Source: Pirellulales bacterium (GTDB lineage Bacteria > Planctomycetota > Planctomycetia > Pirellulales > Thermoguttaceae). Taken from it: a DNA stretch of 39,926 bases. Position 1 is the stretch's first letter; every line of letters starts with the position of its first letter. Location: positions 1 to 39,926 of the forward strand of contig JAFGLH010000255.1 in assembly GCA_016928165.1 (NCBI GenBank), given 5' to 3'. Below are positions 22,477-39,856 of the stretch, piece after piece. The notes under the pieces are model-generated. The model saw only the letters and a list, made by a program, of their open reading frames with translations. It was not told the origin of the DNA and ran no database searches. Position numbers and translations under genes: made by a program.

Positions 22477-23590
22477 GATAACGTTTTCCTTGCCCTACTA
22501 GTTTGACAATTTCGTCGGCCATCTCTTCCAAAGAGACGGCCTTGGCAATGCCTTCGATAATAGGTTCCCGCGGCATGCCAAAGACCACGCAACTGGCTTC
22601 ATCCTGGGCGATGATCGGCGCGCCGAGCCGATGCAAGAGCCGACACCCGGCCGCGCCGTCGTTGCCCATGCCGGTCATAACAACTCCGACGGCCCTATTG
22701 CCATAAACGTTCGCCACCGAGCGGAAAAGATAATCGACCGACGGCAGGCAACTGTTTTCGGGCGGATCGTCCGTGATTCTAACCACGGGAGATTCATCCA
22801 TTATCTCCACCTTCATTTGTTTTCCCCCGGGAGCGATAAGGACCGTACCCGGCTCGACCGGCTGGCCGTCTTTGGCTTCATATACATGCAAGGCGCAACG
22901 GCCGTCGAGATCGTGTGCCAGCGAACGGGTAAACATTGGAGGCATGTGTTGCACCAACAACACCGGCGCCGCGAGATCGGCGGGGAGTCGGGGCAACATG
23001 TGCGACAGCGCTTGGGGGCCTCCGGTGGAAATCCCGAGAGCCACGACTTCCCTCTCGTTTAATCCATGCAAATCCTCGATTGTCGCGGCCAAGATATTTT
23101 TCACATCTTCGGAAGTTTGTATGCGACTCGGAGGAGGAACATGCGTTTCCAACCTTGTGTGCGGTTGGGCATGGAGAATGGAACGGATTTCGCGGGCGCG
23201 AGAAAATGCTTCAATCCTTAGCATGAGTTGCCTTCGCAACATTGCGATGTTTGCCTCGAAACTGCCTTCGCACGGCTTGACGACGAAATCGAACGCCCCC
23301 ATTTTAAGCGCTTCCAACGTCACATCCGCGCCGTCCGTGGTAAAGGCGCTCAGCATGATTACGCCCACGTCGGCGCCGGATTCGCGCAAGCGCCGGAGCA
23401 CTTCCAATCCGTCCACGTCCGGCATTTCCAGATCGAGGGTCATTAAATCGGGCTTGAGCGACTCGACCTTCTGGAGCGCGATATTTCCGTCCGCCGCTGC
23501 GCCGACGACCTCTACGCCGGCGATGCCGTTTAGAATTTCGGCAACGATTCTACGGTAAGTGACGGTATCGTCTACAACGAGCACTCGCAT
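22427..23590 (-). CDS. cheB: CheB receptor methylesterase with receiver domain
   Basis: A two-domain response regulator that removes methyl groups (and deamidates glutamines) on chemoreceptors after phosphorylation by CheA. The receiver domain has the acidic pair VDD and phospho-acceptor Asp53 in TLDLEMPDVDG. The catalytic domain carries the Ser-His-Asp triad of the family: GISTGGPQ, VQHMPPMF and GMGNDGAAG. Length is 387 residues. The C-terminus runs some 17 residues past the usual end and overlaps cheR by 50 nt. GGAGA lies upstream of the ATG. A gap of about 190 bp separates it from the chemoreceptor gene upstream; nothing else was recognised in that gap. Confidence 0.95.
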   Translation of the reverse strand: MRVLVVDDTVTYRRIVAEILNGIAGVEVVGAAADGNIALQKVESLKPDLMTLDLEMPDVDGLEVLRRLRESGADVGVIMLSAFTTDGADVTLEALKMGAFDFVVKPCEGSFEANIAMLRRQLMLRIEAFSRAREIRSILHAQPHTRLETHVPPPSRIQTSEDVKNILAATIEDLHGLNEREVVALGISTGGPQALSHMLPRLPADLAAPVLLVQHMPPMFTRSLAHDLDGRCALHVYEAKDGQPVEPGTVLIAPGGKQMKVEIMDESPVVRITDDPPENSCLPSVDYLFRSVANVYGNRAVGVVMTGMGNDGAAGCRLLHRLGAPIIAQDEASCVVFGMPREPIIEGIAKAVSLEEMADEIVKLVGQGKRYLAGSRWRHFGDIPART

Positions 23591-23778
23591 ACTGAAGTCG
23601 TCTCCACAGCGCTGTATTGCCGCGAGTCTGTTTCTTTATTTGAACGCGGTGGGAAAGCCAAACACCGAAGGAGTTCCTTCCCCCTCCGAAAAAGAGGCGC
23701 GGGAGGACGGCATCAGGCGGTGCGTCCTGATTCCCGGCCGCTATTCCGGAGGGAAAAGGGATGGTGTTCTTCCGCGTA

Positions 23779-25989
23779 TTACGTACTCATGTGAAATTGC
23801 CCCACCAGTGACTGAAGTTGGCCGGCCACGTCGGTAAGCTTTCCGCTGGCGCTTTGAGTGATCGTGGCGCCTTCGGCCGTTTGTTTTGCCGCCTGGTCCA
23901 CTTGCACGATGTTGCGGGTGATTTCCTTGGTGACGTTAGCCGTTTCGGCGACTCCCTTAGCCACGGTTTCAGCCGCCGTTGCCGTTTGAGCGATGTTGCG
24001 AGCGATCTCCTTGGTGGTGATGCTTTGCTCTTCGACGGCGGAGGCGATTACCCGCGAAACTTCGTTGACCTTCTTGATTACTTCGTCGATTTCACCGATC
24101 GACTGGACGACGTGTCCCGTCGAGTTTTGGATTCCCACGATCCGTTGACGGATATCCTCGGTGGCGGCGCCGGTTTGGCGGGCCAGTTCCTTGACTTCCG
24201 TGGCGACGACGGCGAAGCCCTTGCCGGCGTCTCCGGCCCGTGCGGCCTCGATCGTGGCGTTCAGCGCCAACAGGTTGGTCTGTTCGGCAATGTCTTGAAT
24301 GACCTCGATGACCTTGCCGATTTCGCCGGCCGCGAGACCCAATTCGGCGATCTTGTCGTTGCCGGTCTTGGTCAGGTCGGCGGCGGTGCCGGCGACGGAG
24401 GCCGCCTGCTCGGCGCTTCGGGCCACCTCGCTGATGCTGGCCGTAAGCTCCTCGACGGCGGAAGCGACCGTTTTGACGTTGCTGGACATCTGTTCGGACG
24501 ACGCCGCCATGTTGGTCATGTTCGTGGACATTTCCTCGGCGGCGGCGGCCACCGTGGCCGATTGGTTGGTGGCTTCCTCGGCCCCGCTGGCCAATTGCGA
24601 GGCCGTGGCCGATAGACTGTTGGACGACGACGACAACTCGCTGGCGTTTCCGGCGATGTTGCGAATCATGCCCTGCATCTTATCCAGGAACATGTTGAAC
24701 CATCGGCCCAGATCGCCGATTTCATCCTTGCCGGTCACGTCGAGTCTTGTCGTCAAGTCGCCTTCGCCTTGTGCGATGCCTTTCAGTTCGTTTGTTACGA
24801 TCGCTAGCGGCTGAGTGATCCTGGTGGCGATCAGCAGCGAAATGATTCCCACCACAAAAAATACAACTAGTCCGCCGGCAATGCTCCAAAAGACCAAGGA
24901 GTTGATCGCACTGCGCGTTTGGGTCACGGCATCGCGGTAGTCATCCTCATAGGCGCCCGCGCCAATTACCCAATTCCAGGCGGGAAAATGGGTATAGGCG
25001 GTGATTTTGTCGCGGGGGCGAGTTTCTCCCTTGTTTTGCCAGGGGTAGTGAATCACCTTGCATTCTCCCGGCGGGGTGGCGACTGCATTGTTGATAATCG
25101 CTTGGATGAATTTGTTGCCGCTGGCGTCCGTGGAATCCCAGATGTTTTCGCCGTCGCGTTCGCCCTTGTACGAAATGACGTACGATCCCTTGTTATCGCC
25201 GGCGGCTCCCAGGATGTAGACGTATCCGGTCTTGCCGACCACCATGTCAATAATGGCTTGCCGCAGTTCGGGGCATTCCCCTTCCTTTATTCCCACGTAC
25301 AAGGCGCCGACGACTTTCTTCTCGGCGTCGAATATAGGTTCGTAAGCGGTCCAGCACCAGCCGTCCACCACGAACGCTCGACCCTTGAACGTCTCTCCGC
25401 GAAGCAGCGCCGAAATGACGGGGTTCGGTTTTCCATCCGGATTCACGGCGGGAATATAAGTGCCGACCGCCCTGACGCCGTTCGCGTCTTTAACCGAGGT
25501 GCTGACGCGCAGCATGTCGCCGGCGTCGTTGATCCGCTGAAATATCGTACAGGTGTCTCCGTCAGTCTGTGCGGTTACCGTGTCGACGAAGGAATGCGCC
25601 TGTTTGTTGTCCGTTTTTTGACCGATTCGCTGCTTGCCGACCAGTAGGTTCGGCAGGTTCACTTCCCGGTCCTGCTTGGTATACTGGTTTTGCGCTATCC
25701 AGGACGTTTTTTCCTCGGCCAGCGACAGAGTTCCTCGACTCTCGAACAGCGCCCTGGCCATGCGCAGATCGCTGAGCAGCTTCTTATTGATCGTTTGATT
25801 GTATACGGTCAACATTTTATAGACGTCGGTGGCCGCCGTCTTCAGTCCTTTTTCGGCCTCTTGATTCATGACGGTCAAGATTTCGTTTGTTATGTAAGTC
25901 TTTCTGACCGCGATAAAACCGACGATCAGCAGCGCCGTCAGCGCCGTGCCCGAAACGCTCAAGGCAAGAATCTTTGTCCTGACTTTCAT
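23779..25989 (-). CDS. Methyl-accepting chemotaxis protein with Cache sensor
   Basis: A 736-residue transmembrane chemoreceptor. An N-terminal membrane segment ([19 protein letters not shown]) leads into a large periplasmic region of about 340 residues. Features such as [10 protein letters not shown] and [17 protein letters not shown] fit a Cache_3/Cache_2-type small-molecule sensor. The second membrane segment ([24 protein letters not shown]) is followed by a HAMP domain and a long helical signalling domain. Its hairpin tip, [18 protein letters not shown], is the near-invariant CheA/CheW contact. The C-terminus lacks a CheR-binding pentapeptide. GAGGAG stands 9 nt before the ATG. It sits inside the che cluster, so it probably signals to this CheA. 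The ligand is unknown. Confidence 0.95.
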
Positions 25990-26091
25990 CTTGATATTCT
26001 CCTCGAAGATAGTGAAATGTTGGTTGCAAACTACGATAATTACGAAATATGCGGCGACATTGACCGCAATATGACATTCTCTCGGCGTCCC

Positions 26092-26565
26092 TCAAACTTC
26101 ATCGCGCGTCACGGCGAGCACTTCCGCGACGTTAAGGATTGCCAGCAGTTCATTCTCCAATTCAACAATGCCCCCGAAATATTCTTCATTCGCGGCGGCA
26201 AGGTTCGCCGGGAGCGGCTTGATTTCGTTCCGTTGCGTTTTCACGACGTCGGCGATCCGATTCACCAGCAGTCCGACCCGCTCTCCGTCGGCGCTTACGA
26301 CGACGTTGCGGGTGTTTTTGTCGATATCGGTGCGACCCAGGCCAAGTATCTGGCGCAAATCCAACACGGTCACCACCTCGCCGCGAAGATTTACCACGCC
26401 CCGGACCCACTGGGGGGCATTGGCGACGGGCGTCACTTCGACGTGGCGGTTGATCTCCTCGACGTGTCGGATCTCCGCCCCCAAGAGCATGTCGCTGACG
26501 TAGAAAGTGACAAACTCCACTTCGCCGGACGATACGGGCATGACATTATTCATAACCGCGTTCAT
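26092..26565 (-). CDS. cheW: CheW coupling protein
   Basis: A 157-residue SH3-like adaptor that links chemoreceptors to CheA. It consists of a single CheW domain: VEFVTFYVSDMLLGAEIRHVEEI, VTPVANAPQWVRGVVNLRGEVVTVLDLR and VGLLVNRIADVVK are typical. The ATG at 26565 has only a weak GGGGAA upstream; a second ATG four codons in is possible. It lies between cheA (35 bp upstream) and the chemoreceptor gene (about 100 bp downstream), all on the minus strand. Confidence 0.94.
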   Translation of the reverse strand: MNAVMNNVMPVSSGEVEFVTFYVSDMLLGAEIRHVEEINRHVEVTPVANAPQWVRGVVNLRGEVVTVLDLRQILGLGRTDIDKNTRNVVVSADGERVGLLVNRIADVVKTQRNEIKPLPANLAAANEEYFGGIVELENELLAILNVAEVLAVTRDEV

Positions 26566-26600
26566 TGTATATTTCCCCGCTCGATAAAAATCCAGTTGTA

Positions 26601-29285
26601 TTACGAGGTTCGCGCCGCCGCGTGGAGGTAATCGGCCACGGTGGCGACCAGGCGCTCGCGATCAAGTTTGATGTGGTAATCGTCGATGCCGACTATTTTC
26701 CCGCGTTCGACGTCTTCGTCGCTGGCCAGTGAAGTCACGGCGATAATCGGAATGTGTGTGAGCGACGGCGTGTTTCTGACCCTCTGCGCCAAGTCGAACC
26801 CGTTGAGATTCGGCATTTCCAGATCGGTGACGATCAGGTCGCACGGCTTGCCCGGATGGCAGAGCACGTCCCAAGCGACCTTTCCGTCCTCGCAGGCCAG
26901 CACGTTGTAGCCTTCGGCTTGCAAAAAACCGGCCAACTGTTTGCGGAAGAAGCTCGAATCCTCGGCCAGAAGAATCGTGGGGGCGTCGCCGACGCGCTCA
27001 CCTTCGGCGGGGATGTCCTGAATCCATTCCGCGTGCGCGGAGCGGGTCAATTCCAACAAGTCCAACATGCGCGTGGCCTTGTTGTCCAGAACCAACGAGC
27101 CGATGACGCCTTTCTCTTGGAAAGTCGTGGTGTCGATGTCGGTCGACATTTGGCGGATGTCCGTCAGTTGCGGCGCTATCAGGCCGATCTCCCTTTGGCC
27201 GATTCGGTATACGATCACGTAAAGCCGTTCCTGTTCCGGACGCGGCAACGCGTTGATGTGATTTTCCAGACTCAATAGCGGCAAGGACACGCCGCGGTAT
27301 TGGAGCACCTCTTGTCCGCCGACCTTGTCGATCTGATCGCTGCGGATTCGTTCCAGCCGCGAAATCAACCCCATCGGCACGGCGAATTGCTCCGTCTCGG
27401 CATTGGTGAACAAAAGCATCGTTTGGTTGTCGGCGGCGGCCGCCGCCGTCGACTCGACCTCCCCAGCCAGTTCCTTGGCGTCGCGCGTATGCAGCGAGAC
27501 TTGCGACGCCAGTCCGGCCACGTCCACGATCAACGCCACCTGTCCGTCGCCGAGAATCGTCGCGCCGGCGAAGCAGCGGCAATCTTTCATGTGTTTGCCC
27601 AGCGGTTTGACCACGATCTCTTCGGAATCGTGCAAGGCATCGACGATCACGCCGTATCGGAGCAATCCGTATTCCACGACGATGATATTGATGTTGTTGG
27701 AGCGGTTTGCGGCGTCCGTTTCGTCGGCGCCATTCTCCAGCACCGAGTTCAGGCGAACCAACGGCAACAATGCGCCTCTCAACCGGAGCACTTCAGCGTT
27801 ATCGACGTATTGCAACCGCTCGGCTCTTTCGGCGGCCTTGACGCGGACCAGTTCGCTGATGCTCGCCTGCGGAATGGCGAAACGACGCCCGTTCGAGCGG
27901 ACTATCAATGAAGGAATAATGGCCAGCGTCAAGGGGAGCGTGATGTTGACCGACGTCCCTTCGTCCACCGTGCTTTCCACGTCGACCGTTCCACCGAGCT
28001 TTTCGATGTTCGTCTTCACGACGTCCATCCCGACTCCACGGCCGCTCAGATTGCTAACAGTTTTGGCCGTCGACAATCCGGGGCGGAATATCAGACGCAA
28101 AGATTCGCGAGCGCTCATCTCGTGGGCTTGTTCGGAAGTGATGACTCCCTTCGCGACCGCCTTGTCTCTCAACGAGGCCGCGTTGATGCCCGCTCCGTCG
28201 TCTTTGACCACAAGATGGACTTTACCGGCCTGGTGAAACGCCTTGAGGAATATCTTGCCTTTGGCGTTTTTGCCGTTTGCGGTTCGTATTTCCGGGCTTT
28301 CCAGTCCGTGATCGACCGCGTTGCGGATCAGGTGCGTCAGCGGATCGCCGATAGCTTCGATAATCGACTTGTCCAACTCGACGTCCTTGCCTTCGACAAC
28401 CAGGTCGCATTGTTTGTCCAAAGATTGGCATAAGTCGCGAACCAAGCGGGGAAACTTTCGGAACACGGTCTCGACCGCCTGAAGACGGGTCTGCATGACC
28501 GCTTCCTGGATCTCGCTTGTGACCTGATTCAGACGCGCCGAAATCGAATCCAGGTTTTCGCGGCTGTTCGTGGCCACGGTTTGCAGCAACTGATTGCGAG
28601 CCAGAACCAATTCTCCGGCGAGATTCATCAAATGGTCGAGAACGCGGACCGAAACCCTGATGTTCGCGTCCGTCGCCGATCCGTTTTGGGCGGATGTTTC
28701 CGCGGCCGTCAAAGCGTTGGATGTCTCATTCGCCTCGTAGGTTTCCGTCGTCTCGATCGAAGGCGGGTTGGCGCTGACAGGCTCCGCCTCGCCATACCGG
28801 GCCTCTTCCGAAACGTATGCGTCAACCAGATCGAGGGCTTTTTCAACGTTCGCCGTCTCATCCATTCCGCTTTGCTGCTTGACGAGGATGTCCGCGTCCG
28901 ATTGTTGCCGAGTTATCACGGCTTGCAAGTCCGATATATGGCCGGAAACGTCCACTTCCTCCGACCGATCGACGTTCTCGACCATCGCGCGAAGCGTGTC
29001 GGCGGCCTTAAACAACACTGTTGTCACGTCGGGACGAGGCACGAGCTGCCGATTGCGGATCATATTCAATACGTTCTCCATTTCGTGGGAGAGCGCTTGA
29101 ATGTTGGACAATTGCAAAAAACCGGCCGTCCCCTTGATCGAATGAACGGCGCGAAAAACCGTGTTCACCAGCTCGTCGTCGATATTCGCTCCACCGGCTT
29201 CGATGGCCAATAATTGGCTTTCGATGTCAACCAGGTGGTCGCGGGATTCAACTACAAACTCCTCTACAATTTGACGGTCAATCAT
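26601..29285 (-). CDS. cheA: Hybrid CheA histidine kinase with two CheW domains and a receiver
   Basis: The central kinase of the cluster, 894 residues. An N-terminal Hpt domain holds the phosphorylated His48 (AVHSIKGTAGF). A Glu/Ala/Thr-rich linker replaces a recognisable CheY-binding P2 domain. Next come the dimerisation helix pair (LDHLMNLAGELVLARNQL) and the ATPase domain (HLIRNAVDHGLE, DDGAGI, GRGVGMDVV). Two CheW-like regions follow (about 470-610 and 620-755), then a C-terminal receiver with Asp821 in IVTDLEMPNLNGF. The fused receiver suggests a phosphate sink or internal relay, as in hybrid CheA proteins of non-enteric systems. The start overlaps the cheX stop by 4 nt (ATGA), indicating coupled translation. 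Confidence 0.95.
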   Translation of the reverse strand: MIDRQIVEEFVVESRDHLVDIESQLLAIEAGGANIDDELVNTVFRAVHSIKGTAGFLQLSNIQALSHEMENVLNMIRNRQLVPRPDVTTVLFKAADTLRAMVENVDRSEEVDVSGHISDLQAVITRQQSDADILVKQQSGMDETANVEKALDLVDAYVSEEARYGEAEPVSANPPSIETTETYEANETSNALTAAETSAQNGSATDANIRVSVRVLDHLMNLAGELVLARNQLLQTVATNSRENLDSISARLNQVTSEIQEAVMQTRLQAVETVFRKFPRLVRDLCQSLDKQCDLVVEGKDVELDKSIIEAIGDPLTHLIRNAVDHGLESPEIRTANGKNAKGKIFLKAFHQAGKVHLVVKDDGAGINAASLRDKAVAKGVITSEQAHEMSARESLRLIFRPGLSTAKTVSNLSGRGVGMDVVKTNIEKLGGTVDVESTVDEGTSVNITLPLTLAIIPSLIVRSNGRRFAIPQASISELVRVKAAERAERLQYVDNAEVLRLRGALLPLVRLNSVLENGADETDAANRSNNINIIVVEYGLLRYGVIVDALHDSEEIVVKPLGKHMKDCRCFAGATILGDGQVALIVDVAGLASQVSLHTRDAKELAGEVESTAAAAADNQTMLLFTNAETEQFAVPMGLISRLERIRSDQIDKVGGQEVLQYRGVSLPLLSLENHINALPRPEQERLYVIVYRIGQREIGLIAPQLTDIRQMSTDIDTTTFQEKGVIGSLVLDNKATRMLDLLELTRSAHAEWIQDIPAEGERVGDAPTILLAEDSSFFRKQLAGFLQAEGYNVLACEDGKVAWDVLCHPGKPCDLIVTDLEMPNLNGFDLAQRVRNTPSLTHIPIIAVTSLASDEDVERGKIVGIDDYHIKLDRERLVATVADYLHAAARTS

Positions 29286-29872
29286 CTTATCGCTCCGGCG
29301 GATTCCGCGGACTGTTTCATCATGCTTTCGTAAGTGGGCGTGGCCCCCTTCGCAAACAGCCGATCAAAATCGAATTCTTTTTTCTCTTCCTCGTCAGGGG
29401 CGTTCGGATCAAGCGTTTCGACAAGGGCCACTTCAATGGCGACGTCTCCCCAGGGGCTCTCGTACGGGACGCATACGGATACCGCCTTGTGAGGAAATCC
29501 CATCACGTGCTGCTTGCCGACGATCGTCGTGGGAAGGCTGATGTCGAGAGAAAGGTGCTCCATCTTCGCCTTCGCCGCGCCGGCGATGATGTTCGTCAAC
29601 TCGCCGACGGCGTCGACGACGTCGCCGTCGATGTCCGTCGGCCGCTCGCCCAGCAACGCCTCCGACACCGACAAGGCGGCCTCATGGCAGAGACTCAATA
29701 CCACCGTGCCCTTGGCCTTCTTCGAGGAGAGTCCGATCACGCCGCTGACTTCGTATTCGGGTTGGATTTCTTTTTTGACAATGGCTTCCCGAGGCGTCAA
29801 CGCGCAGCCCAGCATGATGTCAAATGTCGAGACGGCCGCGGTCAAAAAGTGTTCGAGATATTTAGGACTCAT
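29282..29872 (-). CDS. cheX: CheX-type chemotaxis phosphatase
   Basis: A CheC/CheX/FliY-family protein expected to dephosphorylate CheY-P. The segment MSPKYLEHFLTAAVSTFDIMLG matches the family's N-terminus. Then come GVIGLSSKKAKGTVVLSL and the active-site helix DAVGELTNIIAG with the conserved E-x-x-N, followed by LPTTIVG. The open frame extends 32 codons further upstream (to 29968), but that part has no family match, so the ATG at 29872 is used, giving 196 residues. A charged C-terminal tail (PDEEEKKEFDFDRLFAKG) goes beyond the usual length. It precedes cheA with a 4-nt overlap and follows cheY by about 210 bp. Confidence 0.88.
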   Translation of the reverse strand: MSPKYLEHFLTAAVSTFDIMLGCALTPREAIVKKEIQPEYEVSGVIGLSSKKAKGTVVLSLCHEAALSVSEALLGERPTDIDGDVVDAVGELTNIIAGAAKAKMEHLSLDISLPTTIVGKQHVMGFPHKAVSVCVPYESPWGDVAIEVALVETLDPNAPDEEEKKEFDFDRLFAKGATPTYESMMKQSAESAGAIR

Positions 29873-30083
29873 GGCAAAAAACGAAGCGATTTGCTTGACT
29901 TGGAATGTTGTGATACTTTCAGTGACTTTCGAGGAATGCGTCCCGCCCTTCGACAAAACGCCCAACAAACATAGGTTGCAATTATCCTCATGCTCATGCA
30001 GATTCGTATGGGATGGGCACGTTTTGAAAGCGGATCGGCAAGCGCATGGTGGAGGGAAAAATGCGGTTGTAGGAAATATCCGG

Positions 30084-30527
30084 TTATGTTAACCGTTTGC
30101 CCCAGGCGCTCTGCGGCGTCGAATGTGAAACAAATTGAGGATGCCAGTTTTCGGCGGACGAGTCCGCTTTGGTCATAACGTGGTTGTTCAGAATGTCGCG
30201 AAGCTTGGCGTTGTCGAACGGTTTGACCAGGTAGTCCGAAACGCCGGCGAATATCGCTCCCGCGATGCGCTCCTTTTCGCCTTCGGTGGTAATCATGATG
30301 ATCGGCACGTCCGACCCCTGCGACCTGATCTCGCGAACCACGTCCAGTCCGCTCTTGTTGGGCATGTTCCAATCGGTCAGGATAAGGTCGAATTTTCCAG
30401 CGTTAAAATGTTTTATCGCTTCCGCGCCGTCGGCCGCTTCCTTGACGGATGTTACGCCGACGTCTTCCAATAGACGCCGGATAATCTTCCTCATGACCGC
30501 CGAATCTTCCGCAAGTAATACTTTCAT
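30084..30527 (-). CDS. cheY: CheY-like response regulator
   Basis: A single-domain receiver of 147 residues, expected to carry the signal from CheA to a motor or other effector. The acidic pocket is in LLAEDSAVMRK, the phospho-acceptor is Asp52 in LILTDWNMPNKSG, and the conserved Thr (MITTEGEKE) and Lys (DYLVKPFDN) are present. The open frame runs back to 30644, but that extension has no family match and contains the promoter. The ATG at 30527, where the first beta strand begins, is taken as the start. About 20 residues after the last helix (SSAENWHPQFVSHSTPQS) exceed a minimal CheY. It is the first gene of the cluster. Confidence 0.92.
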   Translation of the reverse strand: MKVLLAEDSAVMRKIIRRLLEDVGVTSVKEAADGAEAIKHFNAGKFDLILTDWNMPNKSGLDVVREIRSQGSDVPIIMITTEGEKERIAGAIFAGVSDYLVKPFDNAKLRDILNNHVMTKADSSAENWHPQFVSHSTPQSAWGKRLT

Positions 30528-30616
30528 GGTAGTAACTCTTAGTAGATTGCCTCTACCATGCCCCGACCGGGGTTTTCCCTCTGAACGAGGAAACGTTCCT
30601 TGGAAACACCTTTTAA

Positions 30617-30644
30617 TGCATAGCTCGAAGATGGGAGATGTCAA
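30617..30644 (-). promoter_or_regulatory. Candidate promoter of the chemotaxis cluster
   Basis: A perfect TTGACA (30644-30639, minus strand) and TATGCA (30622-30617) are separated by 16 nt, about 90 nt before the cheY start. It is the only strong candidate seen upstream of cheY, so it may drive much of the seven-gene cluster. Confidence 0.5.
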
Positions 30645-31180: not shown

Positions 31181-32470
31181 TCAAGACGGCCCATCTCGGC
31201 CTGCAAGCCGCTTTATAATCCGCACGCAGGCGAGAATGTTCTTTCCGGAGTGAAATTCAGGGTCTTGAAACTTACAGGCGGGCGGGACGTCGATCGGCAA
31301 ACCGGTCTTGCCGTCGATGTTCTGAAACGGCCCCAGCGAGGTTTTCGGATTCAGGTAGCGAGTGAAGTAGGTATTGTTGACTTGGCGATAGGTTTCCAAG
31401 AACCTCCGATTGCCGGTTGACTCGAAGGCCAGCAGCGACGTAAGCATCGTTTCCGGCAAGATCCACCAGGGCATGGTGTCATTGATCGGATCGCCGGAAT
31501 CGGCGTCGATGGATTTATAGATTCCCGGATGGCGTTTGTTCCAACCCTTCTCGATGTTCCACGAAGCCAACCGTGGACACACGTCATTGATTCGCATGCA
31601 CAGATTCCCGTGGATTCCCGCTTGTTGCGCGAGTCGAGCGAACTCCAGAGCGAAGCCGGCGAACTCAACGGCATGGCCCGGATCGACGGCCAGACGCCCC
31701 TCGGGATCGACAAATGGGCCTCCTTCCGGCCGAACGTACTCGGCCAACGCTCCGACTTGCGGCAGGTAATGCGTATCCAATAAACGTTTAGCCAGGCGCG
31801 CCCCAACGTCGAGATACGATTGGTCTGAAAGCTGTTTGGCGAACTCGTTGGCCAAATCGAGCGCTGCCGACCAAGGGTTTTCCGAGATTCGGTCGGGAAA
31901 CGTAGGATCGGGTTCCAGCAGGAAATTTCCAGACTCCAATGCCTCCAGCGATTCGTGTAGCAGCCGCTTCGCGGCCTCGATCCGCACGGCGTCCTCGGTC
32001 AGCGCGCCGTATTCCAAGAGTCCCAGGCAACCGTACAAATCACTGTAGCTCCGATGTTCTTGCGGGGAAGGGGAATGGGGCAACGTTTCTGCTTCCCCCG
32101 GGTTGAGTCTAAACGGCAGACGGCCCGCGTGGGCTTCGAGGTGTCTCTCAATTACCTCGACGACATGCCGGGCGTAGGCCGTCAGTTGCGGGGCCTGGCG
32201 CGGAAAATGCCGAGCGAAACGGGCGAATACGCAGGCGCCACGCCCGTTGATCCAAGAATATGAAAAGAGTTCTTCAGCGGGGAATTCCTCGCCGGTGATT
32301 GAATTGTAGCCGGTGTGTACGCCCGGAAAATCACGAAACCTCTCGAATCGCTGTAGCAGGAAACGAATGCGAAGATGCAGGTACTCGTGATATGCCTCAA
32401 TCAGCCGGTCGTCAAAGAGGGCCTTCTCGGATGAATCCACTATCTTAAGCCGCCGCACGATTTCATTCAT
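31181..32470 (-). CDS. AGE-superfamily (alpha/alpha)6-barrel protein
   Basis: A 429-residue protein resembling the N-acylglucosamine 2-epimerase / cellobiose 2-epimerase superfamily of (alpha/alpha)6 barrels. The best evidence is the VDPGHAVEFAGFALEFARL segment, equivalent to the HPGHxxE helix that carries a catalytic histidine in the superfamily. Also present are the YSDLYGCLGLLEYG helix pair and the W-rich MPWWILPETMLTSLLAF segment. No signal peptide is present, so it is cytoplasmic. The exact reaction is unknown; an epimerase or an unsaturated-glycoside hydrolase are possible. It is the last gene of the five-gene operon, and its start overlaps the LarA-like stop by 4 nt (ATGA), so translation is probably coupled. 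Confidence 0.75.
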   Translation of the reverse strand: MNEIVRRLKIVDSSEKALFDDRLIEAYHEYLHLRIRFLLQRFERFRDFPGVHTGYNSITGEEFPAEELFSYSWINGRGACVFARFARHFPRQAPQLTAYARHVVEVIERHLEAHAGRLPFRLNPGEAETLPHSPSPQEHRSYSDLYGCLGLLEYGALTEDAVRIEAAKRLLHESLEALESGNFLLEPDPTFPDRISENPWSAALDLANEFAKQLSDQSYLDVGARLAKRLLDTHYLPQVGALAEYVRPEGGPFVDPEGRLAVDPGHAVEFAGFALEFARLAQQAGIHGNLCMRINDVCPRLASWNIEKGWNKRHPGIYKSIDADSGDPINDTMPWWILPETMLTSLLAFESTGNRRFLETYRQVNNTYFTRYLNPKTSLGPFQNIDGKTGLPIDVPPACKFQDPEFHSGKNILACVRIIKRLAGRDGPS

Positions 32471-33762
32471 TGCATCTTCTCTCGCTTGGGTGCTACGACG
32501 GGGACGGCGCCGACGCCGTCGGGCAGTATCGCCACTGTTGCTTGAGGGCCATGTTTGCGCAGGGCCGCCGCAACCGCCTCGCCCGCGTTGTGGTAATGCT
32601 CGAATTTCATCCGTTTCGCGTCCTCGGCAGTCAGACCATCTGAGACGATGGCCAGGGACAACCGTTTCCTCATTCTGGCGATCACGGCCGCCGCCGTTAC
32701 CGCGATGGGTTCCGCCGCCTTGCCGGCCAGCGCGTCCCGGACCAAGGGGCCGGGATCATCCGTCCCGATGTAGTTGGCGTACCGTGGGTGTGGGCCAATG
32801 CCCTCGGGACAGGCGGCCAAGTGGATCAGAGTGCCTCCGTCCTTGATTACCGGTTCTGCGGCAAAAATTGCCTTCGAGGCAAGCCAAAAATCCTCCTCGG
32901 CACGAAAGGAGGTAACCAGAACGACGTCGGCCTTCTCGGGCAAAACAACCGAGTAGATTTCCTGGGCGTAAGACACGCCTCGGCGGTGCGCCTGGAGGTA
33001 GTGGCCGGCTACGGTGCGGTAGACGCGGTTGTCGGAAGTGAGCACGCAGTTGACGATAAAATCCAGGCCCACCGTATCGACCCACGTTTCCATGGCGCTG
33101 CGCACTGGATTTTCCACCACGCCGTAGGTGTTCCAATCGACTTTAGCGTAGCTTAGGTGGAAGGCGGTAACGGTTTGCCGGCTGCTGACGCCGGGATAGA
33201 GAATCTTTCCGCCGCCGCTCCAGCCGCACTCCGGATGTGGCAAGATCATCCCTACGCCAATGCGGAAGTCGGCTTCGGCTACCCGGCGGTCGATGGCCAC
33301 CGGGGTGCCGTCCGGCGCCCGGCCGTACGGCACGATTCCTCGCGGATCATCAAACTCGGAATTGAACAGCCGCACTCGGGAGGCGACCGCCGGGCCGGCC
33401 CGCAAGGCCATCTCCTCTGGGGTCATCTTCCGATGGGTGCCCAGCGCGAAGACCACGTACATGTCGCGATCGGCCACGCCCGCCGCGGATAATTCCTCCA
33501 ACAGCAGCGGCAGTATCGTTGCCACCGGTGTGTCCCGCGTTTTGTCATCGCAGATCAGGGCCGTTTTCATACCCGGCTTGGCCATTTCCCGGAGCCTGGG
33601 CGTACCGATCGGATCGGCCAAAGCCGCGCGGATCAGTTCCACCGCCGGGCGGTCCGCCTCTATACGGCGACTCGGAAATATACCGAGTAAATTGGCGGTC
33701 GGCACCGATAGCCGCATCCGCTTATTCCCATAGGGCAACGTAATCTCGGTGTGCCGGGACAT
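32467..33762 (-). CDS. LarA-family nickel-pincer racemase/epimerase
   Basis: A 431-residue homologue of lactate racemase LarA. All four key residues are present at a constant offset of two from the Lactobacillus plantarum enzyme. The catalytic histidines are His110 (GTHRKM) and His176 (LPHPECGW). Lys186 (GGGKILYPG) would carry the nickel pincer nucleotide, and His202 (TAFHLSY) would ligate nickel. The DDKTRDTP block matches the substrate-anchor region. LarA-family enzymes racemise or epimerise various 2-hydroxy acids and sugar acids by hydride transfer, so lactate is not implied. The cofactor genes larB, larC and larE are not in the window. The frame extends upstream to 33924, but the ATG at 33762 overlaps the MttB-like stop by one base (TAATG) and is preferred. 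Confidence 0.85.
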   Translation of the reverse strand: MSRHTEITLPYGNKRMRLSVPTANLLGIFPSRRIEADRPAVELIRAALADPIGTPRLREMAKPGMKTALICDDKTRDTPVATILPLLLEELSAAGVADRDMYVVFALGTHRKMTPEEMALRAGPAVASRVRLFNSEFDDPRGIVPYGRAPDGTPVAIDRRVAEADFRIGVGMILPHPECGWSGGGKILYPGVSSRQTVTAFHLSYAKVDWNTYGVVENPVRSAMETWVDTVGLDFIVNCVLTSDNRVYRTVAGHYLQAHRRGVSYAQEIYSVVLPEKADVVLVTSFRAEEDFWLASKAIFAAEPVIKDGGTLIHLAACPEGIGPHPRYANYIGTDDPGPLVRDALAGKAAEPIAVTAAAVIARMRKRLSLAIVSDGLTAEDAKRMKFEHYHNAGEAVAAALRKHGPQATVAILPDGVGAVPVVAPKREKMQ

Positions 33763-35234
33763 TAATCGACAAACTCCTTGGCGGCCCGGGCCACAATCTC
33801 GTCGATTGCCTTCAACTTGTGGCCGTCGAGAATTATCTCTGGCGTTTCCTGCCAGATTTCCCCAGCCTTTTGTCGCGACCTTCGCTCCATGCCTCCCGCG
33901 TCTCCGCCGTGAGCGGTGCTCCAAGGCGCCGTCTCGAAGAGATCGGAAAAGAACAGTTCACGTCGGAAGTGTTCCGCGGTGTGCATTTCGCTCAGGTAGT
34001 TGCCGCCGATGCCGACCGCGCGAACCGCGTCCAAAGCAAGTGTCCGCTCGTTGACTTCGATTGGTTGCAGCGCTCGGTGCATGTAACGGGCGACCTCGTT
34101 GTCGATCACCAACTGCTGGGGCGAGAAAGTAACGGCGTTTTCCAGATGGCCCACCACCCCGATGCCCACCGCGCCCGCCAGGACCGGAAACACCGTACTC
34201 ATCGCCTTTTCGATGCCGCACTGCACGTTGACGAAGCAGCTATCGGTCTTCAGTCCATGCACGCCGCTCGGACAACCGTAATACTCCGTGATGAGCTGCA
34301 CCCGGGCCGCCAACAGCGGCATGCGGTCCGCCGTGGCGTAGCGAAACAATCCCGATTTCATGTCGCAATAGGAGGGAATAATATCGACGCCGATCACGGC
34401 ATTTTCGTCGATGGCGTAGGCCAAGACCATCGGCCCCAAAGTCTCCGCGATTCCCAGGGCCAGCAGGCCCGCGGCCGTCACCGGAGCGGTTGCGCCGCCG
34501 TTGGGCATCGTGTCCAGCGTCTGCGGAAAACCGCGCTCGATATAATCCATGAAGATTTCGACCATGTTGCGGTCCAGACACAACGGCGAGCGTGCCTCGG
34601 CGTAGCCCACCAGGATCGGCTCCCGCCTGAGATTCTCCAGCCCCCCTTTGACGATCGAACCGATCTCGATCAGGTAGGGAACGTCTTCCTTCTTGAACGT
34701 TTCAACGCCGCCGAACTTCGTGGTGTACTTGGCCAGCTCGGCGGCCATCTTCACCGGCCGCAAGGGGCCGGGCGTTTCCTGATCCGACACCGGCAGACCC
34801 GTGTAGTCGATGGCCTCCAGCCGGTCGGCCAAGTGGATGGATCGGCGGACATCGTCCATGGTCGCACTGCGGCGAGTTCCGTCCAAATCGTGAATGAAAC
34901 AGCAAAACCCGCCGGCGCTTACGGTAAAGTCGGGATGGATACGATGCTTTTCCCGGCGGAACCGGACATGAGAATAGCGGACCGCCATCTGTTCCGGAAA
35001 CCGGTTCTCTACGGCGTAGTCGGCTTTCATCTTGTCGACGTACGATTGCACCACGCGGCGGGGAAACCGAACCAAAAAGCTGCTCTCGTCCACGCGACAG
35101 CCGACCCGCTTTAGATAACTAAGCGCTTTCTCGCTTTCCATCCTCATGCCGACCTGTTCCAAAATGGTCAGGGCGGACTGATGAATCTTCTCCATATCGT
35201 CCGGGCTTAGAACCCGGATGGGTTCCAGTAGCAT
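33762..35234 (-). CDS. MttB-like methyltransferase without pyrrolysine
   Basis: A 490-residue member of the trimethylamine methyltransferase (MttB) superfamily. The sequence starts with LSPDDMEKIHQSALTILEQVG, the usual N-terminal helix. Then come the VSAGGFCCFIHDLDG and GGVETFKKEDVPYLIEI segments, and the barrel strands MPNGGATAPVTAAGLLALG and YGCPSGVHGLKTDS. The frame has no internal UAG, so it belongs to the non-pyrrolysine branch. That branch includes demethylases of glycine betaine, proline betaine and carnitine, which pass the methyl group to a corrinoid protein. No corrinoid protein or reactivase gene is seen nearby. It lies 69 bp after the UroD-like gene and overlaps larA-like by 1 nt. 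Confidence 0.85.
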   Translation of the reverse strand: MLLEPIRVLSPDDMEKIHQSALTILEQVGMRMESEKALSYLKRVGCRVDESSFLVRFPRRVVQSYVDKMKADYAVENRFPEQMAVRYSHVRFRREKHRIHPDFTVSAGGFCCFIHDLDGTRRSATMDDVRRSIHLADRLEAIDYTGLPVSDQETPGPLRPVKMAAELAKYTTKFGGVETFKKEDVPYLIEIGSIVKGGLENLRREPILVGYAEARSPLCLDRNMVEIFMDYIERGFPQTLDTMPNGGATAPVTAAGLLALGIAETLGPMVLAYAIDENAVIGVDIIPSYCDMKSGLFRYATADRMPLLAARVQLITEYYGCPSGVHGLKTDSCFVNVQCGIEKAMSTVFPVLAGAVGIGVVGHLENAVTFSPQQLVIDNEVARYMHRALQPIEVNERTLALDAVRAVGIGGNYLSEMHTAEHFRRELFFSDLFETAPWSTAHGGDAGGMERRSRQKAGEIWQETPEIILDGHKLKAIDEIVARAAKEFVD

Positions 35235-35303
35235 GGATTTCTCTCCCTCTTGTGTCGTTTTAACTCGTTTTGCAATCGCTTGGGTTACCCGCTCTCCGGC
35301 GAC

Positions 35304-36461
35304 TTACACTTTGTCTCGCAACTCGACAAACTCGTCCAGCATGGTCATGAAGTTTTCGTATTTCGTTCCCTTCGCCACCGAGTGGCTGGGTCCGAAAATA
35401 AAGCCTCCGCCGGGGGCTCCGCGCCGCAGTGCAGTCCGCACGTCGCGGCGAACGTCGTCGGGCGTGCCGGTAATCAGCGTTTCGACCGGCATCCCTCCCC
35501 AGAAACAGAGCCGGTCGCCGAACCGCTCCTTCAACAAGCCGATCTCCATCCCAGCCGTCGTCTGCAACGACTGGTAGCAAGCCACCCCGGCTTCGATGAA
35601 CATTTCCATCAGCGGCATGTTCTGGCCGCAATTGTGCAGGATTACCTGAGGCACAAACCGCTTGATGTGTTGCACGCGCTGCCGGAAAAACGGGAAAACC
35701 AGTTCGCGGAACATCTTGGGCGAGATCAGCGGCGCGCGGGTTCCCGCCGTATCTTCCTCGATAATCACTCCGGGGCATTCACCGCGAATGTAGTATTGGT
35801 CAAGCGCGTCTTGAACGGCCGCCGTGCGGCGGTTGAAGGCCGCGATCACTTCCGGCTGGGAGGCGTATAGAAACAGGCCCTGTTCGATGCCGCCGAGCGA
35901 CTCCATCGCCACGACGCCGCCCCCGGTGATGCCGCCCGAGGGACTGGCAATGTAGCGGTCTCGGCCGAGTTGCTCCTGGAGATAGTCGAACGCCTCGAAA
36001 ACGCTGGGATCAGGGGGATGGACCTCGGGAAAACCCTCGAAGTCCTCGGCGCGGAACTGGCGCTTGCCCGCCATCGGGTCGAAAATGCACTGGATCTCGT
36101 TGGTTAGCTCCACCGCCTGATAAATGCATCCCCGCCGATCCTCCCATTTGTCGGGAGCGATTTTCTTTGGCGGGTCCGGAACGTAATCCTTCGGCGGAAG
36201 AAGCAGGGCCTCCTTCGGCAACAACAGGTCGGCGCAGTCTATCTTCCGGTAGAACTCGACGGTGTCGGCCTTGAGGCTTTCGGCCACTTCCTCGCGGCGG
36301 CCTTCCCAGAGGGCAATCTGTATGGCGATCTTGTTCCGCACGTAGGTCGGACGGCCCAATACCCGCTCCACGGTGTCGTAGTCGACCGCAAAAAAGCCCA
36401 GGGGGACTTTGTCCACCGGCTTACGCGCAATCGCCGCTTGCACCCGCTGTTTGGAATTCAT
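35304..36461 (-). CDS. UroD/MtaA-like methyltransferase
   Basis: A 385-residue protein of the uroporphyrinogen-decarboxylase superfamily. In catabolic clusters this superfamily usually supplies corrinoid:acceptor methyltransferases (MtaA/MtbA-like) and not haem biosynthesis enzymes. The N-terminus (NSKQRVQAAIARKPVDKVPLG) is the common UroD-like opening. LHNCGQNMPLM near the C-terminal third resembles the zinc-binding His-x-Cys motif of the methyltransferase branch. The haem-type substrate motif is not obvious. It sits 36 bp after the symporter gene and 69 bp before the MttB-like gene. This fits a role as the partner methyltransferase, or as a second demethylase. Which methyl acceptor it uses cannot be told. 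Confidence 0.82.
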   Translation of the reverse strand: MNSKQRVQAAIARKPVDKVPLGFFAVDYDTVERVLGRPTYVRNKIAIQIALWEGRREEVAESLKADTVEFYRKIDCADLLLPKEALLLPPKDYVPDPPKKIAPDKWEDRRGCIYQAVELTNEIQCIFDPMAGKRQFRAEDFEGFPEVHPPDPSVFEAFDYLQEQLGRDRYIASPSGGITGGGVVAMESLGGIEQGLFLYASQPEVIAAFNRRTAAVQDALDQYYIRGECPGVIIEEDTAGTRAPLISPKMFRELVFPFFRQRVQHIKRFVPQVILHNCGQNMPLMEMFIEAGVACYQSLQTTAGMEIGLLKERFGDRLCFWGGMPVETLITGTPDDVRRDVRTALRRGAPGGGFIFGPSHSVAKGTKYENFMTMLDEFVELRDKV

Positions 36462-36497
36462 TGTTCAACCAAGAAGTGTTCGAAGCATCGTTGATGT

Positions 36498-38483
36498 TTA
36501 TCGCAAACAGTAACCGATTAGCCACAGAATCCCCAAAACGCCCAGCGACATCAGACAAACTACGAAGAAGCCGACCACGGTGTAGCGGTCGAATCGTTCG
36601 ATCACCCAGTTGCTGTCGGGGAACAAATGGCGTCCTCGCATCCGTTGATCGAAGTGGGCCGCGTTTTCGGCCACTTGGCGGGCATCCTCGTGCGGCGGTT
36701 TGCCCATGGCGGGCGTGAGCATGCGGGCGTAGAAATCGTCGAGGTTCCGCTTGGGCACGGTCTGCCGGCTCAAGAGCGAGCACCCGTACATCAGCACGAA
36801 AGGCAGCAGCGCCGGAAACAACATGTGCAGCGACTTGACCGCCGCCGTGCCGAATCCGTCCACCCGCACGCCCGCCAAATGCAACAGGAGTATCTCCGGC
36901 CGTATCCGCCCCGCGCCGCGCAGTCGGCCGTCGGCGTTTTCGGCCAGGTCGGTAAAGAAGATCGGCGTGGTCTCGCTCGTCCGGACCAGCGTGAACGCCT
37001 CGCCCACTTTCGATGCCCGGCCTTCATCCACGTCGTACTGCGTGGCGATTTGACCGGGATATTCCACTCTTACAGCCGGGGTGCTTCCGAGGAATTCAGG
37101 TTTTTCCGCAAGCGGCGTGAGGCAGGCAAGCATGGGAAGCACGAACACCAGCAGCAGTCCGCCCAGCACCGTGGCGGCGGCTCCCGTCACGGTTGCCCGC
37201 CGCCACACAAATCCGAGCCAAAAGACGGGCCCGAACAATGCCAATCCCTCAAAGGAAAGCAGGAACTGATCGACCATATTCCTCATACTGTAGGCCACGA
37301 CGGCGGTGACAAGCAGAAACACCAGCGAAGCGATTCTACCGATGAACATATAATGGCGATCCGATCTGCCGGGAGCGAACAAGGGCCGATAAACGTTCTC
37401 GGTAAAGGTGGCGGCGGCGGCGACCATGTGGGCGCTGGCCGTCGACATCAAGGCGGACATCAGACCGGCGATGACCAGTCCGACCAACCCTAACCCGATC
37501 GGGGCCAGCAGACGCAGCATCAGTGCCCCGTAGACCTGTCCTTTAGCGATCGTCGTCGGATTGAAAAAAAGGACGCCCAACAGTCCGACTACTCCCCAGG
37601 CGACCACCGAAGTTCGCTTCAACAAGAAGCCAAAAACCACGCCAATTTGGGCGGTCCGTTCGTCTTTGGCCACGTTGGTGAGCATGTTGGACGGCCAGGC
37701 CGGGTGACCGGCGAGCATGGCCAACAGCAAGCAAAGCACGTAGTACCAAGTGTAGGTGCCCCCCTCGCCGCCGAAGACGTCCAAGAGGTGGTGCGGTACG
37801 ACCTGGCGGATGTGCGCCAATCCACCCCCTTCCGCCAGCGCGATAGGAATGACCAGCACGATGGTAAAGAAGATGACCCAGATGCTTTGAATGCAGTCGG
37901 TCAATATCGCCGCGTGAACGCCCCCGCACACGCCATACGACAGCACCAAGAGCATCGTGGCCAGTATGCACAGCGAGAAAACCAAGTCCCCTTGTGCGGC
38001 GCTGAGGCTCATCTGGACCGATACGATCTTCGTGATGCTGTCGCCCATGGCCGTGAAGCCCACCGATATCCACGTCGCCAAACAGAAAAGCGAGAAGACG
38101 CTATGCAACGCCGTCAGCGGCTTCGAGCGGTAGCGGGCCTGAAGAAGATCACTGATCGTGACGTAGCGAAAGCGGCGGAGCCAGAGGAAATATATCCAAT
38201 AAACCGGCAAGGCAAAAAGATTAGTCAGGCTGATCCACACGCCCGATAGCCCCTGTCGGAACGTCTGGTCGGCGGTCATGATCGGGGCGTCGGCGTTGAC
38301 CGATTCGCCATACTGAGCAAAGAGCGTGAAAAACTTGCCGAACGAACGGCCGCCGATGAAAAAATCTTCCGTGTTGTGGATTTTTCGAAGCGAGTAGTAA
38401 CCCACGCTAATCATTAGCGCGGCGTAGAAGGCCAGCCCGACGAAATCGGCCCACGTCAACCCCGGGGCCATGCTCTGTCCCAT
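36498..38483 (-). CDS. Sodium:solute symporter (SSS family)
   Basis: A 661-residue membrane transporter with a LeuT-like fold, predicted to import an organic solute with sodium. The N-terminus (WADFVGLAFYAALMISVGYYS) and the GYYSLRKIHNTEDFFIGGRS loop are typical of SSS proteins. Many hydrophobic segments follow, including LVGLVIAGLMSALMSTASAH, the conserved SSS segment with small residues and serines. Between two late membrane segments lies an unusual soluble insert of roughly 85 residues (about 460-545). GGAGGAG precedes the ATG at a good distance. It is the first gene of the operon and is transcribed from the divergent promoter region shared with the regulator. It probably imports the operon's substrate. 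Confidence 0.9.
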   Translation of the reverse strand: MGQSMAPGLTWADFVGLAFYAALMISVGYYSLRKIHNTEDFFIGGRSFGKFFTLFAQYGESVNADAPIMTADQTFRQGLSGVWISLTNLFALPVYWIYFLWLRRFRYVTISDLLQARYRSKPLTALHSVFSLFCLATWISVGFTAMGDSITKIVSVQMSLSAAQGDLVFSLCILATMLLVLSYGVCGGVHAAILTDCIQSIWVIFFTIVLVIPIALAEGGGLAHIRQVVPHHLLDVFGGEGGTYTWYYVLCLLLAMLAGHPAWPSNMLTNVAKDERTAQIGVVFGFLLKRTSVVAWGVVGLLGVLFFNPTTIAKGQVYGALMLRLLAPIGLGLVGLVIAGLMSALMSTASAHMVAAAATFTENVYRPLFAPGRSDRHYMFIGRIASLVFLLVTAVVAYSMRNMVDQFLLSFEGLALFGPVFWLGFVWRRATVTGAAATVLGGLLLVFVLPMLACLTPLAEKPEFLGSTPAVRVEYPGQIATQYDVDEGRASKVGEAFTLVRTSETTPIFFTDLAENADGRLRGAGRIRPEILLLHLAGVRVDGFGTAAVKSLHMLFPALLPFVLMYGCSLLSRQTVPKRNLDDFYARMLTPAMGKPPHEDARQVAENAAHFDQRMRGRHLFPDSNWVIERFDRYTVVGFFVVCLMSLGVLGILWLIGYCLR

Positions 38484-38567: not shown

Positions 38568-38609
38568 TTGACACGGCTTTCATTATGTCTACACTATAAT
38601 CCGTGTCAA
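38568..38609. promoter_or_regulatory. Fully overlapping divergent promoters on an inverted repeat
   Basis: On the plus strand TTGACA (38568-38573) and TACACT (38590-38595) are 16 nt apart; a TATAAT at 38595-38600 is an alternative. On the minus strand TTGACA (38609-38604) and CATAAT (38587-38582) are also 16 nt apart. Both -35 boxes are part of the perfect inverted repeat TGACACGG (38569-38576) / CCGTGTCA (38601-38608). The two promoters cover the same DNA, one reading to the regulator and one to the symporter operon. Confidence 0.65.
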
Positions 38610-38677: not shown

Positions 38678-39856
38678 ATGTCCCGTCCGCCCCGAATCGC
38701 TTTGTTGATCGGCACCTCGCGCGCACACGCGCGCCGGCTGTTGCAGGGGATTGCGGCCTACGTCGAAACGCACCGTCCGTGGTCGATCTACCACGACGAG
38801 CGGCCCCTGGGCGACAGTCTGCCCGAATGGATGACTCGTTGGAACGGCGACGGAGTGATCGCTTGGATGGAAAGCCCGAAGCTGATCCGCAAAATTGTCC
38901 GGCTGGGACTTCCCACCGTCGACGTGTTCGGCGCGCGTGCCGTTGCGGGCATTCCGGCGGTCGATAGCGACGAGCAAGCGATCGCCCGCCTAGCCGCCGA
39001 TCACCTGCTGGAATACGGCTTCGATCAATTCGCCTATTGTGGATTTTCCGGGCTCCACTACTCCGACGCGAGGTGCAAGTATTTTATCGAATACCTTAAC
39101 CATCGTAACCGGCGCGCCGTGAGCGTCTATCGCTCGCCGCTGCGTTCGCGCGCCGCGGACGATGCTGGCAAAGAGGCCAAGGGGCTGACCGAGGAATATG
39201 CCGTAGCCCGCTGGCTGAAATTGCTGCCCAAGCCGGTCGGCCTGATGGCCTGCAACGACACCCGGGCACAACAGGTTATCAACGCTTGCACCGAGTATGG
39301 CATTTGCGTACCCGAAGAAGTGGCCGTTGTCGGCGTGAACAACGACGAGGTGCTTTGCGGGCTGTGTCACCCGCCGCTGTCGAGCGTCGAGACCAATGCT
39401 CCAAAAATCGGCCACGAAGCGGCCGCCCTGTTGGACGTTATGCTTTCCGGCCGCCGTCATCCGGCAGAGAAAAATTTGGTCGAGCCGCTGGGTGTTGTGA
39501 CGCGGCAATCGACTGCGGCGGCCATCGCCGATCCAAACTTGGCGCTGGCCATGCGCTTCATATCCGAACACGCATGCGAAGGCATTACCGTAAGCGACGT
39601 AGTCCGCAACTTGCCGATTTCGCGCAGCACGTTGGAACGTCGTTTCGCTGCGGCTTTGGGTCGGGCGCCGTCGGCGGAGATCAGGCGAGTTCAAGTTCAG
39701 CGTCTAAAAGACCTGCTCGTCCATACCGACCTGCCGCTGGCCGGAATCGCCCGCTTGACCGGGTTCAATCACGTCGAGCCAATGTGCAGGCTGTTCAAGA
39801 GGAAAATCGGCTGCACCCCGGGCGAATATCGACGAGCTTGCCGAATAAGTGGATGA
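38678..39856 (+). CDS. LacI-fold/AraC fusion transcription regulator (XylR-like)
   Basis: A 392-residue regulator with an N-terminal periplasmic-binding-protein-like domain and a C-terminal AraC helix-turn-helix domain, the arrangement of XylR. The binding domain shows IALLIGTSRAHARRLLQGIAAY in two parts, DSDEQAIARLAADHLLEYGF, MACNDTRAQQVINAC and EVAVVGVNNDEVLC. Residues from about 295 to the end form the double helix-turn-helix (VVRNLPISRSTLERRFAAAL and IARLTGFNHVEPMCRLFKR). The family binds a sugar or related small ligand in the cytoplasm and activates the adjacent catabolic genes. It is transcribed divergently from the symporter operon. No strong ribosome-binding site precedes the ATG. Confidence 0.92.
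   Translation: MSRPPRIALLIGTSRAHARRLLQGIAAYVETHRPWSIYHDERPLGDSLPEWMTRWNGDGVIAWMESPKLIRKIVRLGLPTVDVFGARAVAGIPAVDSDEQAIARLAADHLLEYGFDQFAYCGFSGLHYSDARCKYFIEYLNHRNRRAVSVYRSPLRSRAADDAGKEAKGLTEEYAVARWLKLLPKPVGLMACNDTRAQQVINACTEYGICVPEEVAVVGVNNDEVLCGLCHPPLSSVETNAPKIGHEAAALLDVMLSGRRHPAEKNLVEPLGVVTRQSTAAAIADPNLALAMRFISEHACEGITVSDVVRNLPISRSTLERRFAAALGRAPSAEIRRVQVQRLKDLLVHTDLPLAGIARLTGFNHVEPMCRLFKRKIGCTPGEYRRACRISG

Follow-up and report, generated by a model that had tools for sequence, protein, structure and literature searches.

The DNA window analyzed here, a 39,926-nt contig (JAFGLH010000255.1, assembly GCA_016928165.1) from a Pirellulales bacterium, carries a five-gene operon that encodes a sodium:solute symporter (SSS), a UroD/MtaA-like protein, an MttB-superfamily protein, a LarA-superfamily protein and an AGE-superfamily protein. 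We propose, with a probability of about 0.5, that this is an inducible operon by which the cell imports and degrades a carbohydrate-type molecule that is methylated and probably acidic (a methylated sugar, a methylated glycoside or a methylated uronic acid). The gene content and layout of the operon, its linkage across phyla, the conservation of catalytic residues, and the cofactor and carrier genes of the genome were computed. Each of the families is already known. In the literature searched, we found no description of their combination, of the MttB clade with lysine in place of pyrrolysine, or of the tie of this clade to carbohydrate loci, which agrees with the initial annotation that no described pathway joins these enzymes. 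The features are as follows.

36498..38483, minus strand: SSS sodium:solute symporter, gene 1 of the operon, presumed importer (PF00474, 88.7 bits)
35304..36461, minus strand: UroD/MtaA-like protein with the zinc-ligand pattern H276-x-C278 ... H360 (PF01208, 78.7 bits)
33762..35234, minus strand: MttB-superfamily methyltransferase of the non-pyrrolysine kind, in which Lys329 (AAG) takes the place of pyrrolysine (PF06253, 226 bits)
32467..33762, minus strand: LarA-superfamily nickel-pincer 2-hydroxyacid racemase/epimerase (Lar_N, 187 bits, and LarA_C)
31181..32470, minus strand: AGE-superfamily sugar epimerase/isomerase of a divergent subgroup (PF07221, GlcNAc_2-epim, 45.5 bits)
38678..39856, plus strand: divergent XylR-type regulator with a sugar-binding-protein fold and an AraC helix-turn-helix domain (PF13377, Peripla_BP_3; PF22177, PBP1_XylR; PF12833)
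38568..38609, no strand assigned: inverted repeat TTGACACGG-N24-CCGTGTCAA, possible operator (repeat search: 12 nt, 92% complementary)

Operon structure and partial recurrence in a spirochaete

The open reading frames were called and the junctions were read directly, and the layout was exactly that of the initial annotation. The five minus-strand genes are separated by gaps of 36 bp (SSS-UroD) and 69 bp (UroD-MttB), followed by a 1-nt overlap at the MttB-LarA junction (TAATG) and a 4-nt overlap at the LarA-AGE junction (ATGA). The start of LarA was placed at the ATG at 33762; the longer reading frame from an upstream TTG is a mechanical call. The divergent regulator, initially described as a LacI-fold/AraC protein, was recognized by Pfam as XylR-type. 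Between it and the operon lies the near-perfect inverted repeat, which contains TATAAT. All operon and regulator families scored above the Pfam gathering score. Only sub-cut-off NCBIfam matches were obtained for these proteins, indicating that all of them fall outside the standard membership of the named subfamilies. Because the specific NCBIfam transporter models were matched only below cut-off, the substrate of the SSS symporter is not nameable from its family, and assignment of a substrate from the symporter or UroD family models was rejected on such scores. An Rfam scan of the window gave no match, with neither a cobalamin nor a NiCo riboswitch, and no tRNA genes were found in the window.

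Synteny was examined in 297 genomes of the window's own order and 297 genomes sampled from the spirochaete class, and genes in GC-rich (guanine-plus-cytosine-rich) relative loci were called by codon-position scoring. Synteny by descent was absent from the own order, where any MttB occurred in 15 of the 297 genomes and the best protein outside the window's genome reached 31% identity. The close relatives of the window MttB came from a Spirochaetales metagenome-assembled genome (MAG; 71-72%) and from Phycisphaerae (50-57%). Their occurrence in other lineages, not in the own order, points to horizontal transfer. A partial cluster was found in the spirochaete genome G677, in which orthologues of MttB (71%), AGE (53%) and LarA (53%) lie within about 20 kb on contig C46. 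The MttB and AGE genes there are joined by TAATG, the same overlap as that after the window MttB, and the LarA orthologue lies ~8 kb upstream, with UroD-like, sugar ABC transporter and second MttB-like genes in between. MttB proteins of the clade described below were present in 3 of the 297 genomes of the spirochaete class, and LarA proteins of >50% identity only in G677. The synteny expected from the initial annotation is thus absent within the order and partly present outside it, and its recurrence in another phylum shows that the gene association is beyond chance.

The MttB-like protein, its clade and its neighbors

The window MttB matched PF06253 with 226 bits (cut-off 25) and is the sole PF06253 protein of its genome. 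Its AlphaFold2 model (predicted local distance difference test, pLDDT, 91) gave MtgB and MttB as the top Foldseek matches, with template-modeling scores of 0.87/0.90 to MtgB (9yce), and the predicted fold appears full length and intact. Lys329 (codon AAG) aligns with pyrrolysine 334 of Methanosarcina barkeri MttB, and there is no in-frame TAG in the gene. Pyrrolysine at this residue is a mark of trimethylamine methyltransferases only; therefore, the protein is not a trimethylamine methyltransferase of the pyrrolysine type. Lysine occupied the position in 10 of 10 clade members and in 0 of 36 other non-pyrrolysine rows. C321, H326, C333, R86, S88, R91 and H100 were also invariant within the clade and absent outside it, and Tyr364 of M. 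barkeri MttB is Gly in the window protein. In a maximum-likelihood tree of 47 sequences, built without MtpB, MtcB, MtyB and MthB, the 10 members formed a clade of Planctomycetota and Spirochaetota (support 100/100), and the window MttB was nested in a planctomycete-plus-spirochaete group (100/99). The clade was separate from pyrrolysine MttB and from MtgB, which paired with L018 (100/99). Thus, the non-pyrrolysine assignment made initially held, and among the sequences in this tree the protein fell not with members of known function but in a clade of its own, with Lys at the pyrrolysine site. The distinctness of this clade means that the activities of the characterized members are not simply transferable to it.

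For the majority of proteins of the MttB superfamily, as for most UroD-like proteins, no substrate is known. A single-sequence search of the PDB with the UroD-like protein gave no match, and a profile was required; the best match was then MtaA (4ay7, 64 bits), with true UroDs lower (≤47 bits). In the zinc-ligand columns, H276 and C278 are kept (H-x-C), and in the third column His360 replaces Cys as a putative ligand, histidine being a residue that can bind zinc. Orthologous UroD-like genes are paired with clade MttBs in Phycisphaerae (49% identity) and in spirochaetes (43-44%), the latter alongside further clade MttBs in G677 (contig C13), G783 and G838. The protein resembles the UroD-superfamily O-demethylases and methyltransferases MtaA, MtvB, OdmB and CdmB (PMC13222342) in its match to MtaA and its H-x-C ligands, and differs from them in the replacement of the third ligand, Cys, by His and in having no adjacent corrinoid gene. 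The substrates of the known UroD-superfamily O-demethylases are aromatic methyl ethers (PMC13222342).

The carbohydrate reading derives from the neighborhoods of the clade MttB genes. One locus (L023) carries GH4, MttB and UroD genes, and the closest PDB match of the GH4 protein was the alpha-galacturonidase LplD. At L133, a LacI regulator, two large glycosidase-like proteins (one GH106-like), GH4 and a BNR protein accompany MttB and UroD, and at L135 MttB is found with a BNR protein, an AXE1-like esterase and a SASA esterase. UroD, MttB and a D-2-hydroxyacid dehydrogenase occur together at L081, where the contig then ends, and at L082/L083, where a CUT1 sugar ABC transporter is also present; L083 in addition abuts a tagaturonate-epimerase (hexuronate) cluster. 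The 2-hydroxyacid dehydrogenase stands where LarA would be, which suggests a 2-hydroxy acid intermediate. Neither betaine transporters nor dimethylglycine/sarcosine genes were seen among the neighbors at the clade loci. The initial annotation had named a betaine of a hydroxy acid or an O-methylated sugar acid as the methylated chiral compound; the O-methylated sugar acid fits these neighborhoods better and the betaine less well, both being putative. One may speculate that a methylated uronate-like acidic sugar would suit both the neighbors and the basic clade-invariant residues.

Other MttB-like genes were noted during this survey. The spirochaete cluster that holds MttB, AGE and LarA includes, at 1759-3207 of L022, another MttB-like gene beside a sugar ABC transporter and a UroD-like gene; its product is very divergent (27%) and has Ser where pyrrolysine would stand. 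Within the family to which the window belongs, several genomes from four genera hold tandem pairs of quite different MttB paralogues (L006, L008, L010, L011, L017/L021).

LarA, AGE and the carrier genes of the genome

The best PDB relative of the window LarA is the malate racemase Mar2 (6d6z). The equivalents of the cofactor and catalytic residues listed in PMC7583248 (D72, R75, H108, H174, K184, H200 and K298) were all kept in the alignment of the window and spirochaete proteins. The pocket residues are unlike those of malate and lactate racemases, with His-Pro-Glu and, at the Tyr294-Gln295 positions, Trp-Leu. The best NCBIfam model, LarAH6 (NF052593), scored 328 bits under a cut-off of 500, and identity as a LarAH6 malate racemase was rejected on this threshold. 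The protein is thus like the LarA superfamily members Mar2/LarAH6 and the gluconate 2-epimerases (PMC7583248, PMC11770544) in its catalytic residues and its residues for the nickel-pincer cofactor, and unlike Mar2/LarAH6 in score and pocket. The larBCE genes for this cofactor, expected elsewhere in the genome, were all found above cut-off: LarB (266 bits) on C15, LarC (453 bits) on C83 beside NikR, and LarE (290 bits) on C121. The G677 LarA has all cofactor-binding residues, although in its genome (that of L022) no LarB, LarC or LarE scored above cut-off; either parts of this MAG are missing or the organism obtains the cofactor otherwise. LarA homologues of 40-43% identity in other spirochaetes (L164, L165, L166) were rejected as synteny, since they adjoin NagA/NagB/SIS-domain-type genes and not MttB. 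A NagA-like gene is present at all three loci and NagB-like and SIS-domain genes at L164/L165, named by sequence reading, which hints at lactate racemization during N-acetylmuramate use.

The AGE protein belongs to the superfamily of GlcNAc 2-epimerase, cellobiose 2-epimerase and YihS by its fold and its Arg/His/Glu active site. All of the top 39 Foldseek matches of its AlphaFold2 model (pLDDT 90) were AGE superfamily members with the (alpha/alpha)6 fold. R77, H266 and E269 were invariant across 19 sequences, and the C-terminal FHSG His is present. It differs from the named enzymes in belonging to a WWxLPE subgroup (WWILPE in the window) and in its 13-20% identity to solved members. Assignment as GlcNAc 2-epimerase proper was rejected, with 49.8 bits to NF052547 against 600 required and WWxLPE in place of the WWPHxE motif. 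The best orthologue in the phylum had 33% identity, and UroD was adjacent in only some cases; relatives of ~30% lie beside UroD-like genes in G422 (with a sulfatase, GH94 and SSS), G306 and G394.

The window forms contig C66 in a MAG of 3.62 Mb and 269 contigs (88.5% complete, 1.66% contaminated). The clade MttB loci examined showed no corrinoid gene, and the initial annotation had supposed that the methyl carrier is encoded elsewhere or that the chemistry differs. Consistent with the former, two corrinoid proteins (B12-binding and B12-binding_2) were found on C247, one of them directly followed by an MTHFR with a DUF5981 C-terminal domain, and a full RACo-type reactivase on C184. On C225, a homocysteine methyltransferase adjoins a pterin-binding methyltransferase, forming a split methionine synthase. 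The C247 proteins are candidate partners of MttB, with a corrinoid gene at 15819-16451 of L073; the RACo gene lies at 7729-9612 of L100. The presence of these genes, together with larBCE, indicates that both the cofactor and the methyl carrier can be supplied in trans. The GC content of the carrier and cofactor contigs (0.59-0.63, window 0.59) is compatible with one genome, which is no proof of correct binning. Moreover, each genome with a clade MttB that was searched for the corrinoid-protein and RACo families contained them.

Elsewhere in the window, a chemotaxis cluster lies directly downstream of the operon (22427-30644), with CheB, a Cache-domain methyl-accepting chemotaxis protein, CheA with a receiver domain, and CheX-like and CheY-like proteins recognized by eye. 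A 1283-aa Eco57I/N6 DNA methylase-like protein (3923-7774) is possibly a restriction-modification or related defense methylase.

Proposed pathway and alternatives

In the proposed pathway, the XylR-type regulator would sense the sugar and the SSS symporter would bring it in. The MttB-like protein would transfer the methyl group to a Co(I) corrinoid protein from another contig, kept reduced by RACo. The split methionine synthase modules would then hand the methyl group on to tetrahydrofolate or homocysteine, with oxidation via MTHFR. The UroD/MtaA-like zinc protein would serve with MttB as a second methyltransferase, either for another methyl group or for the corrinoid-to-acceptor step. AGE would act as an epimerase or isomerase at C1/C2 of the freed sugar, and LarA, with its nickel-pincer cofactor, would invert C2 of a derived 2-hydroxy acid. 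We infer the substrate class, the order of the steps, the roles of MttB and UroD in methyl transfer, and the acceptor used; the substrate itself and the O- or N-linkage of its methyl group are putative. More tentatively, the Lys-for-pyrrolysine clade may use corrinoid chemistry to take methyl groups off O-methylated sugars or uronic acids, with the corrinoid protein coming from the split methionine synthase, giving an oxygen-independent route for methylated glycans.

The closest precedent is glycine betaine demethylation by MtgB/MtgC/MtgD/MtgE of Ruegeria, in which a separately encoded corrinoid protein serves an MttB-superfamily demethylase and methionine synthesis (PMC12478193). The homocysteine and tetrahydrofolate modules shared there with methionine synthesis have counterparts on other contigs here. 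Unlike the Ruegeria system, the window has an MttB of a different clade, in which Lys stands for pyrrolysine and Gly for Tyr364; the neighbors are of sugar type in place of betaine genes, and UroD, LarA and AGE are present in addition. The sole methoxy-sugar demethylation described in the literature searched is by a P450 that acts oxidatively on 6-O-methyl-D-galactose, needs oxygen and releases formaldehyde (PMC10033563), whereas our proposed route would rely on a corrinoid and need no oxygen. The literature search gave no case of corrinoid-dependent demethylation for methylated sugars or methylglucuronate, which is not proof of absence.

Several observations weigh against the carbohydrate pathway. 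Two clade loci (L134, L136) have no clear sugar genes. LarA and AGE were seen with MttB in two genomes only, and most clade MttBs lack both. In G677, LarB, LarC and LarE were not found above cut-off. The carrier genes lie outside the window's contig, in a MAG that is 88.5% complete, and may serve methionine synthesis only. Furthermore, all six substrates assigned so far to the MttB superfamily are amines, with no O-methyl sugar among them, and the characterized non-pyrrolysine members all use acidic quaternary amines (PMC12155760).

This last point favors a different substrate, an acidic quaternary amine with a chiral hydroxyl (a hydroxy-acid betaine, a carnitine-like compound or an N-trimethylated amino-sugar acid), which MttB would demethylate like MtgB, MtcB and MtyB and whose hydroxyl LarA would invert. 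The closest structure to the MttB model is that of MtgB, and the clade-invariant basic residues R86, R91, H100 and K329 would suit a carboxylate. However, the clade is distinct from MtgB, whose Leu at the pyrrolysine position is Lys here, and the neighbors are sugar transporters, glycosidases, esterases and the AGE sugar epimerase, with no betaine transporter or dimethylglycine/sarcosine genes seen. We therefore consider such a substrate rather unlikely, though a real contender. It is unlikely, to a slightly greater degree, that the MttB and UroD homologues are not corrinoid methyltransferases and catalyze another TIM-barrel reaction of sugar catabolism (e.g., Lys329-mediated imine chemistry), with AGE and LarA as isomerases. 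The invariant C321, H326 and C333 beside the lysine found in 10/10 members, the change of Tyr364 to Gly, the lack of visible corrinoid genes at the clade loci examined and the common adjacency of UroD-like genes to sugar genes would fit such chemistry. On the other hand, UroD retains its H-x-C metal ligands and best matches MtaA, the MttB fold is intact and full length, and corrinoid-protein and RACo families accompany the clade in all genomes tested. Finally, a loose assembly of an ordinary sugar operon (SSS, AGE, regulator) with horizontally acquired MttB, UroD and LarA and no single pathway would explain the missing synteny in the order, the nesting of MttB with Spirochaetota sequences and the linkage of MttB, AGE and LarA seen in two genomes only, but is highly improbable given that start and stop codons overlap at two of the junctions, that the spirochaete MttB is joined to its next gene by TAATG as well, and that MttB, AGE and LarA are conserved in parallel from one phylum to the other (53-71% identity).

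The clade ties MttB-superfamily and UroD-like proteins to carbohydrate catabolism and suggests a specific substrate class. If the proposed pathway is true, methylated plant and algal sugars would be demethylated anaerobically, for which the literature searched gave only the oxygen-dependent P450 route. It would also extend the MttB enzymes beyond amines, with lysine at the site where methanogens have pyrrolysine.

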